Source of the DNA: an uncultured Hippea sp.
Lineage (GTDB): Bacteria > Campylobacterota_A > Desulfurellia > JAADFJ01
Direction of reading: 5' to 3'
NCBI GenBank assembly: GCA_913009315.1
Contig: CAJVZA010000008.1
Coordinates: 1-40,406 of the forward strand
DNA: 40,406 nucleotides
The position numbers were made by a program, and so were the translations under genes. Positions within the stretch are counted from its first letter, which is position 1, and every line of letters begins with the position of its first letter. The notes below the pieces were generated by a model, which was given only the letters and a program-made list of their open reading frames with translations, was not told the origin of the DNA and did not search any database. Positions 18,774 through 21,949 of the stretch are shown here, piece after piece.

Positions 18774-20015
18774 ATGACAAATATAAATGAGGCGGTTAAA
18801 GCTTCAAAGAGCGCATCAAGAAAGATCTCTTTGGTCGGCAGCAGTGCAAAAAACCGTTTTTTGGAAAATCTCGAAAGACTCCTTGATAAAAACAGAGAAA
18901 AGATCCTACACGAGAATAGCATAGATATAGAAAACAACAGAAAGAGATTAAGCGGCGCAAAAATCGACAGACTTATGATTAACGATGAGAGAATTTCGAA
19001 AATTATCGAATCTGTTAATATGATAAGAAAGATCGAAGATCCTGTAGGTAGAATCAGCTCCGGCAAAAAGCTTCCGAACGGACTGCTTCTGCTGAAAAAG
19101 CAGGTCCCGATCGGACTTATAATGATTATCTATGAGTCACGCCCGAATGTTACCATAGATGCCGCAGTTCTATGTCTTAAAGCGGGCAACGGAGTAATTT
19201 TAAAAGGCGGGAAAGAGTCAATTAACACAAATAGAATACTTTCCGGTCTGCTTAAAGAAGCGCTGCGAATTGCTGGAATAGATGAGAATGCAGTATATTT
19301 TGTGGATACAACAGATAGAAAGGCAACGGCATCGCTTCTTGAAATGGATGACTTAATTGATCTGGTTATACCGAGAGGCGGAGGTTCGCTGATAAAATAT
19401 GTATCTGAAAACAGCAAAATACCGGTCATAAAACATGATAAAGGCCTGTGCCATATTTATGTTGACAATCAGGCAAGTTTATCAATGGCAAGAAAAATAG
19501 TTTACAACGCAAAGGTAGAAAGACCGGGTGTGTGTAATGCTGTCGAAACCCTTCTTGTAAATTCAGATATTGCGGAGAACTTTTTGCCGGAGATGGCAAG
19601 AGAACTGATTTCTGCCGATGTTACCCTTTTGGGCTGCGAAAAGACGGCTCAAATCATAGATGTTGAGCCTGCCGATGAAAATGACTGGCGGACAGAATAT
19701 CTTGATTTAACGCTTTCAATAAAAATTGTTGATAGTGCTGATGAGGCGATAGATCATATAAATCGATACGGTTCGCACCATTCAGATGCCATAATTACCG
19801 ATAACTTTTCTAATGCGATGAAATTTACGGATGAAACAGATTCCGCTGCGGTTTATGTAAATGCATCAACACGATTTACTGACGGAGGGCAATTCGGTAT
19901 GGGAGCAGAGATAGGCATATCGACCAACCGCCTGCATGCAAGGGGACCAATGGGAATAGAAGAGCTTACTATATATAAATATATTATTATAGGAAATGGT
20001 CAGATAAGAGATTGA
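18774..20015 (+). CDS. proA: Gamma-glutamyl phosphate reductase
   Basis: 413 residues, full length. NADPH-dependent reduction of gamma-glutamyl phosphate to glutamate semialdehyde, the step after ProB. Aldehyde-dehydrogenase-like motifs: 'PIGLIMIIYESRPNVTIDAA', 'LKAGNGVILKGGKES', 'VIKHDKGLCHIYVD', the catalytic Cys in 'ERPGVCNAVETLL' and 'FTDGGQFGMGAEIGISTNRLHARGPMG'. AGGAGG precedes the ATG by 4 nt. It follows proB by 8 bases. Confidence 0.96.
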   Translation: MTNINEAVKASKSASRKISLVGSSAKNRFLENLERLLDKNREKILHENSIDIENNRKRLSGAKIDRLMINDERISKIIESVNMIRKIEDPVGRISSGKKLPNGLLLLKKQVPIGLIMIIYESRPNVTIDAAVLCLKAGNGVILKGGKESINTNRILSGLLKEALRIAGIDENAVYFVDTTDRKATASLLEMDDLIDLVIPRGGGSLIKYVSENSKIPVIKHDKGLCHIYVDNQASLSMARKIVYNAKVERPGVCNAVETLLVNSDIAENFLPEMARELISADVTLLGCEKTAQIIDVEPADENDWRTEYLDLTLSIKIVDSADEAIDHINRYGSHHSDAIITDNFSNAMKFTDETDSAAVYVNASTRFTDGGQFGMGAEIGISTNRLHARGPMGIEELTIYKYIIIGNGQIRD

Positions 20016-20575
20016 AGATAGGAATATTGGGCGGAAGGTTTGATCCGATTCATATAGCTCATATAAGAGCTGCAATAGAATTCTATGAGCAGATCAATCT
20101 TGACAGACTTATCGTAGTGCCGGCAGGAGTTCCAGCCCACAAAAAGGTTGTCGCTTCGGCAGAGGATAGATTTCATATGACTCAATTGGCGTTTAAGACA
20201 CTGAAATTTGCAGAAATTGATGATTATGAGATAAAAAGCAGAGAGACCTCTTATACGGTAGACAGCCTCAAGCATTACAAAAAGAAATACCCCGGATCTA
20301 CGCTTTTTTATCTTGTCGGACTGGATGAATTTATAAATATACGGACATGGAAAGACTGGAGTCTTTGCCTTGAGCTTGCCCGTTTTGTTGTTGTGGAAAG
20401 GCGTACAAACTTTCAATCGGCTGATGTGGAAGAAGATTGTGAAAGAATTGGCATGCGAACGCTTGATATCTCGTCATCGGAAATTAGAATGATGATTGAA
20501 CATGGGAAAATGGTCGACTATCTGCTTCCTGAGGCAGTTAAATGTTATATTGAACAAGAGGGACTTTACAGATGA
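20012..20575 (+). CDS. nadD: Nicotinate-nucleotide adenylyltransferase
   Basis: 187 residues. Adenylates nicotinate mononucleotide in NAD synthesis. N-terminal 'GILGGRFDPIHIAHI' is the nucleotidyl-transferase GxFDPxHxxH signature, with Ala where Gly is usual in HxGH. 'RDSxS'-type C-terminal motif is present as 'DISSSEIRMMI'. It starts at a TTG that overlaps the proA stop (TTGA). The proA-nadD-rsfS order is widespread in Gram-negative bacteria. Confidence 0.93.
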   Translation: MKIGILGGRFDPIHIAHIRAAIEFYEQINLDRLIVVPAGVPAHKKVVASAEDRFHMTQLAFKTLKFAEIDDYEIKSRETSYTVDSLKHYKKKYPGSTLFYLVGLDEFINIRTWKDWSLCLELARFVVVERRTNFQSADVEEDCERIGMRTLDISSSEIRMMIEHGKMVDYLLPEAVKCYIEQEGLYR

Positions 20576-21273
20576 ATAGCGATAAATTGATAATAGAGAA
20601 AATAGAAAAAGTTTTAGACGACAACAAAGGTGAAGAGATTACAACCATAAAAATGTCTCCCGGAAAATCGCTTTTTGATTACAGTGTAATTGTAACGAGC
20701 CAAAGCAAAAGACATTCGGAGAGTCTTGCCGATAAAGTGATTTATGAGTGCAAAAAGTTAGATATAAAAAATATTAAAGTTGAAGGAGATAAAGATTCCG
20801 ACTGGATACTGCTTGATCTTGGCGGTATAATGGTCGATATTTTTACAAAAGAGGGAAGAGAGCGCTACTCGTTGGAAGATCTTTGGAAAGATCATGAGAT
20901 GCAAAAATTAGAGCACGGCGGGGTGAGATTTATGGATATGGATATAGAGAAGAAAAATGCAATAATTTTAAAAAACCGTTTGCAATCGTTGTATGAAGAA
21001 CTGAAGATGGTTGAATCCTCACTTAAAAAGGTGAGACACAAAGAGATAATCGACAAAGCAACATCTACCGAATCCACACTGATATCAGGCATCGAATATG
21101 AAAGAAAAAATCAGGAGATTCGTGCAATTAAAAATGCCTTGAATAGAATGCATGAGGGAAGCTATGGTATCTGCATTGAATGCGAAAAGAGGATCGATGA
21201 GAGCAGACTTGAAATTATGCCTACGGCGAAATTTTGTATGGAATGCAGAAGCAGACATGCAAATAAGGCGTAA
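20572..21273 (+). CDS. RsfS ribosome-silencing factor fused to a DksA/TraR-type zinc-finger protein
   Basis: 233 residues in one uninterrupted frame. Residues about 5-108 are RsfS (binds L14 on the 50S subunit and blocks subunit joining): 'SLFDYSVIVTSQSKRHSESLADKV', 'DWILLDLGGIMVDIFTKEGRERYSLEDLW'. Residues about 121-233 are a DksA/TraR-like module: helical region, then 'GSYGICIECEKRIDESRLEIMPTAKFCMEC' with a C4 zinc site (C201, C204, C222, C225). Normally these are separate genes. An internal ATG at 20932 (M121) has GGGGTGA about 5-6 nt upstream, so a free DksA-like protein might also be made. It starts 4 bases inside nadD and overlaps comF by 17 bases. What the fusion does is not known. Confidence 0.88.
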   Translation: MNSDKLIIEKIEKVLDDNKGEEITTIKMSPGKSLFDYSVIVTSQSKRHSESLADKVIYECKKLDIKNIKVEGDKDSDWILLDLGGIMVDIFTKEGRERYSLEDLWKDHEMQKLEHGGVRFMDMDIEKKNAIILKNRLQSLYEELKMVESSLKKVRHKEIIDKATSTESTLISGIEYERKNQEIRAIKNALNRMHEGSYGICIECEKRIDESRLEIMPTAKFCMECRSRHANKA

Positions 21274-21949
21274 TATCGGTTCGCAGATTTTATCTGTCTT
21301 TTTTCCCGAGAAATGCTATATATGCGGGGTAAAAGCCGAGATGTTATGTGAAGACTGCAAAAAGAAATTTGTTATCCCTGTTACAAGATGCATTAAATGC
21401 GGAAGGGCGCTTCCTGAGGCAGATGCCGACTATATTTGTCAGCACTGCTTTACCGAGAAGCCTGTATACGATGGCGGAATTGCCTTCTTTAAATACACGG
21501 ATGCTGTAAAATCATGGATTCATAATATTAAATATGGAAAAATGAGTTATCAGATCAGAATTTTGGATATCTATAAAGATCAAATTTCAAAGGCTATCGA
21601 CGAGTTCAATCCGGATCTTTTAGTTCCTATTCCGCTTACAATGGAACATGCATATCTTAGAGGATTCAATCAATCGCTCATTGTTGCTCAAAGAATTGCA
21701 AAATGGATAAAACTGCCTGTTTGTCATGCACTCAGGAAAACGAAATTTACAGAAAGCCAGACGGCAGTTGACGCCGGCAGAAGAAAAAGAAATGTAAAAG
21801 GCAGCTTTTCGGCTTCGAAAAAAATTCGGGACAAAAGGATATTACTGATAGATGATGTTTTTACAACAGGTTCAACAATCGGCGAAGCAGCCAAAACATT
21901 AAAACAATATACTGATACTGTCTACTTTTTTACGGTAGCCGGAACATGA
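21257..21949 (+). CDS. comF: ComF-family phosphoribosyltransferase-like protein
   Basis: About 230 residues. The N-terminal zinc-ribbon region has cysteine pairs CYIC, CEDC, CIKC and CQHC (residues 20-64). The PRTase domain follows: 'LVPIPLTMEHAYLRGFNQSLIVA', 'TESQTAVDAGRRKRNVKGSF' and the PRPP loop 'ILLIDDVFTTGSTIGEAA'. Homologues are linked to DNA uptake (ComFC/GntX); the substrate is not established. The ATG at 21257 is chosen because the frame upstream of it is the out-of-frame shadow of the zinc finger gene. Confidence 0.9.
   Translation: MQIRRNIGSQILSVFFPEKCYICGVKAEMLCEDCKKKFVIPVTRCIKCGRALPEADADYICQHCFTEKPVYDGGIAFFKYTDAVKSWIHNIKYGKMSYQIRILDIYKDQISKAIDEFNPDLLVPIPLTMEHAYLRGFNQSLIVAQRIAKWIKLPVCHALRKTKFTESQTAVDAGRRKRNVKGSFSASKKIRDKRILLIDDVFTTGSTIGEAAKTLKQYTDTVYFFTVAGT

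Follow-up and report, generated by a model that had tools for sequence, protein, structure and literature searches.

An in-frame fusion of RsfS with a DksA-like protein, conserved in three species of an uncultured Hippea lineage

A 40,406-nucleotide stretch of DNA from an uncultured Hippea sp. (the window) contains a gene that appears to merge the ribosome-silencing factor RsfS with a zinc-finger protein of the DksA/TraR type. This locus raises the question as to whether two starvation factors, one acting on translation and the other on transcription, are truly encoded in one frame, and if so, how this gene arose and what it produces. The original prediction, made from the letters of the window, was a single 233-codon frame with an additional start codon at position 20932.

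One frame for two domains

The forward strand of the window indeed contains an uninterrupted frame of 233 codons followed by a TAA stop, which can be divided into the following elements.

20572–21273, + strand: fused rsfS-dksA gene (open frame; the same in two further species, G001 and G002)
20599–20886, + strand: RsfS domain, residues 10–105 (Pfam profile, alignment, published uL14-contact residues)
20893–20943, + strand: linker, about residues 108–124 (elevated dN/dS, low pLDDT)
20944–21156, + strand: DksA coiled coil, helices 125–157 and 162–195 (AlphaFold, alignment to E. coli DksA)
21157–21258, + strand: C4 zinc finger of DksA (Pfam profile, four cysteines)

Both predicted domains score above the Pfam cut-offs: RsfS (PF02410) with 93 bits (cut-off 21.6, E = 1.4e-26) across residues 10–105, and zf-dskA_traR (PF01258) with 44.2 bits (cut-off 24.9) across residues 196–229. 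All four zinc cysteines are in place (C201, C204, C222 and C225), as had been claimed. The NCBIfam model for rsfS (TIGR00090) also exceeds its curated cut-off (98 versus 56.9 bits). The equivalog models for DksA score below theirs (NF033459, 61.5 versus 105; TIGR02420, 47.5 versus 115.5), and the second half therefore belongs to the DksA/TraR superfamily, as judged from its sequence and fold, but is not certified as a DksA orthologue by these models.

The source genome of the window (1.74 Mb, 87.6% complete) is fragmented into 96 contigs, which could favor the idea that two normal genes lost the stop codon or frameshift separating them through an assembly or sequencing error. However, two further species of the genus, from separate assemblies, contain the same uninterrupted frame with 94% and 79% identity, neither of which is broken by a frameshift or stop, and all indels among the three frames are multiples of three. 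Since three assemblies would have to share the same error, we can eliminate this possibility as having negligible probability, and with it the indel that the original prediction had named as its refutation. Among the three species, the RsfS and DksA domains are under strong purifying selection (dN/dS 0.01–0.17), while the linker evolves fast (0.43–0.76).

Previous studies on RsfS from E. coli and S. aureus identified Glu70, Trp77, Asp81, Arg95 and Tyr98 as the residues that contact uL14 (PMC3400551, PMC7125091, PMC9503621). An alignment in which split homologues were entered as read-through rows (A2) places the same residues in the fusion as E71, W78, D82, R96 and Y99, each number one higher. 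In the uL14 encoded by this genome, the RsfS binding site likewise retains its T, R and K (site from PMC3400551). In the DksA half, the tip motif E158-x-x-D161-x-A163 corresponds to D71-x-x-D74-x-A76 of E. coli DksA, with the second aspartate and the alanine kept and the first aspartate replaced by glutamate. Judged by these residues, both halves look functional, with the glutamate at the DksA tip as a point against. The closest solved relative of the second half is the short-form DksA from Agrobacterium (2kq9, E = 3e-14; PF01258), which shares the coiled coil, the D-x-A tip and the C4 zinc finger. The fusion differs from this type by the first tip acid, by the RsfS in frame upstream and by scoring under the NCBI equivalog cut-offs.

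The AlphaFold model shows two well-defined domains (mean pLDDT 83.8) separated by residues 115–121, for which pLDDT is under 50; residue 125 begins the first DksA helix. The long antiparallel coiled coil ahead of the zinc finger matches that in 1tjl and 5vsw. Foldseek pairs the RsfS half with RsfS in 50S structures (6sj6, 9ss4), and the DksA half with free and polymerase-bound DksA (1tjl, 5vsw, 7khi). In known DksA complexes the coiled coil inserts into the channel of RNA polymerase while the globular domain stays outside (PMC4370453). Because the model places the N-terminus of DksA at the base of the coiled coil, an N-terminal RsfS on polymerase-bound DksA seems sterically plausible.

Compared to RsfS from other bacteria (RsfA, YbeB; iojap family, PF02410, TIGR00090), the fusion shares the whole domain and the position of its gene after nadD. 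It differs in that rsfS has no stop codon of its own and is extended by about 128 C-terminal residues, most of which belong to DksA. This architecture suggests that RsfS tolerates a C-terminal partner of 128 residues. Each domain is ordinary in itself; what is new is their joining.

Family searches identified the fusion as the sole RsfS and the sole DksA in each of the three genomes, and at most one RsfS above cut-off per genome across the phylum. Since the three genomes are 87–94% complete, the assemblies could lack a further copy of rsfS or dksA. The genome also encodes a RelA/SpoT homologue. A second zinc-finger match above cut-off in G002 (C196, L053) was considered as a standalone DksA and rejected, as it belongs, by inspection, to an FmdE-like protein. 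The same arrangement, an FmdE-like protein with a C-terminal zf-dskA_traR finger, occurs in several genomes of the phylum, and many of the PF01258 matches of approximately 225–235 residues in these genomes may be similar proteins.

Origin and distribution of the fused gene

The fused gene is flanked by two genes on the same strand.

20012–20575, + strand: nadD (named from sequence and conserved gene order; 4-base ATGA overlap with the start of the fusion)
21258–21949, + strand: comF-like gene (name and start by inspection; its probable start lies within the end of the fusion)

The end-to-start overlaps among these three genes (20012–21949) suggest translational coupling along the operon.

In a sister family (f2: G003, G005, G007) the gene order proA-nadD-rsfS-dksA-comF is the same as in the fusion operon, but here rsfS ends in TAG, and dksA follows with its own strong Shine–Dalgarno (SD) sequence at the matching junction. 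The start codon of this dksA lies at the place that matches the internal ATG at 20932, and the two junctions are alike (G005, TAGGTAGGGAGGGTTTATGGAT; fusion gene, CACGGCGGGGTGAGATTTATGGAT). Split rsfS and dksA genes that neighbor each other in frame also occur in 13 out of 77 genomes of the phylum of G029, and in 2 out of 18 genomes of the phylum of G298. These split neighbors are the same gene pair in the same order after nadD and are often in frame with each other, as in the fusion; unlike the fusion, they are separated by a stop codon and a separate start. Given a sister family with the same operon and a TAG between the two genes, the fusion most likely arose through loss of the rsfS stop codon in an old operon. 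Homologues with a stop codon between the domains, which had also been named as a possible refutation, are present in the sister family and other phyla, but they likely mark the ancestral state instead of an error in the fusion gene. Neighbors in the order nadD-rsfS-dksA can thus turn into one gene.

Several variations of this neighborhood were observed. In G018 (L015, 1501–2656) an rlmH-like gene is inserted between rsfS and dksA, giving the order nadD-rsfS-rlmH-like-dksA-comF. In the phylum of G029 (L006, L038–L043), the gene after nadD-rsfS-dksA is conserved and encodes a TPR-like protein with an apparent membrane anchor. In the DksA-like protein encoded next to rsfS in G298 and G463 (L035, L044), only one of the four zinc cysteines remains (GICEESDEP...ARYTVAAQ), which resembles cysteine-poor DksA variants.

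A search for the same domain pair elsewhere gave open frames in G001 and G002 and only split genes in other groups. Among approximately 876 distinct genomes, which sample species thinly and part of which were searched at a strict cut-off that gave no matches, no open RsfS-DksA fusion was found outside this genus. The statement that no such fusion had been described agrees with a limited search of the open literature, in which we found none. Two starvation factors that are encoded as separate neighbors elsewhere are joined here in a fusion that is rare and conserved. This merger, of a factor that silences translation with one that regulates transcription in starvation, is fixed in a genus in which we found no separate copy of either.

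A probable second start codon at the domain boundary

The ATG at 20932 is located in the disordered linker just ahead of the first DksA helix and is preceded by GGGGTGAG. Two elements are assigned to this site.

20916–20925, + strand: internal SD-like sequence (GGCGGGGTGA region; anti-SD match, strongest of the in-frame starts)
20932–21273, + strand: predicted free DksA, 113 residues (internal ATG; matches the dksA start of the sister family)

Assuming the usual anti-SD sequence in place of that in the 16S rRNA of this genome, the internal ATG has pairing energies of −9.9, −9.9 and −7.6 kcal/mol in the three species, the best of all in-frame starts and stronger than those of the first ATG (−6.3, −6.3 and −5.0 kcal/mol). 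This result supports the start signal that had been pointed out at this position. A rough start score that includes local folding ranks the first and the boundary ATG as the top two of 11–18 in-frame starts in every species, and the SD of ATG 20932 ranks second among 57 internal ATGs in nine neighboring frames. The genome of the window contains a second in-frame ATG at 20938. In G001 a 6-base repeat is lost, with the SD and one ATG kept. In G002 the linker residues have changed, and an SD is retained with similar spacing, although it is weaker than in the other two species. This conservation is seen among three species that share descent. Synonymous recoding of the linker gave no significant result: 11–23% of the codings that preserve the amino acids afford an equally strong SD, so codon choice alone is no proof of selection for this start.

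Based on these signals, we surmise that the gene probably has a dual output, namely the RsfS-DksA fusion and free DksA. The composite gene would have formed by loss of the rsfS stop with dksA directly downstream in an ancestral nadD-rsfS-dksA-comF operon. Translation from 20572 would produce a normal RsfS head, which binds uL14 and keeps the 50S subunit free, joined through a flexible linker to an ordinary DksA with its coiled coil reaching into the secondary channel of RNA polymerase. If the old dksA ribosome-binding site and the ATG at 20932 still work, free DksA would be made as well. Each domain would mainly keep its usual job, all RsfS would carry a DksA tail, and the supply of the two factors would be tied. 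As a whole, we consider this explanation reasonably likely; we infer that the internal start is used, that both domains are active and that their two jobs are independent.

Alternative readings and known parallels

The gene could also produce the fusion only. In this case, with the stop codon gone, the internal start would be a relic without function, RNA polymerase would accept the full-length protein by its DksA end and RsfS would be a passive passenger. This scenario would explain the open frame conserved in three species and an SD that is not significantly stronger than in synonymous codings, and it agrees with the steric plausibility of an N-terminal partner (PMC4370453), given the position of the DksA N-terminus in the AlphaFold model. 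On the other hand, the boundary start remains the strongest of the in-frame starts, at similar spacing, despite changes in the linker residues, and we consider a fusion-only product unlikely, though worth weighing against dual output.

The original prediction also proposed that translation and transcription control are joined in one factor. The predicted product does join them, but nothing requires that they are physically coupled. In such a coupler, one molecule would bridge free or maturing 50S subunits and RNA polymerase, or switch between them, such that silencing and stringent control titrate each other. A single chain carries both predicted binding surfaces in seemingly intact form, and no other source of RsfS was found in the genome. 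In contrast, the linker of approximately 15 residues is disordered and poorly conserved and does not resemble a shaped joint, and free DksA made from a retained start would dilute the fusion. Physical coupling of this kind seems improbable. A related version, in which one starvation factor links or titrates 50S silencing against RNA-polymerase control and free DksA from the internal start sets the ratio of coupled to uncoupled protein, is a shade less doubtful. A disordered linker that evolves fast, together with the preserved start for free DksA, fits two independently working domains better. In either case, the gene provides a natural object for testing the consequences of tying ribosome silencing to RNA-polymerase control.

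Cleavage into RsfS and DksA after synthesis is very improbable: the linker is disordered in the AlphaFold model and the RsfS-like N-terminal part of fungal Atp25 is indeed cut from its C-terminal part (PMC7560712, PMC8893259), but the linker sequence differs among species, and no candidate protease or site is known.

Atp25 (RsfS-like plus M-domain) is nevertheless the nearest parallel for an RsfS fusion, with precedent in fungal mitochondria. As in our dual-output model, an N-terminal RsfS is joined to a different gene-expression factor, and one gene gives two products. Unlike the fusion described here, Atp25 is eukaryotic, its C-terminal partner is unrelated to DksA, and it is cleaved on mitochondrial import. 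The nearest parallel for internal initiation, and the one case that a literature search on bacterial internal starts brought up, is SctQ (YscQ), where one bacterial frame produces the full-length protein and a C-terminal product (YscQ-C) from an internal start (PMC4295842). The proteins are unrelated to the fusion, and the internal start is demonstrated in SctQ and predicted in the fusion.
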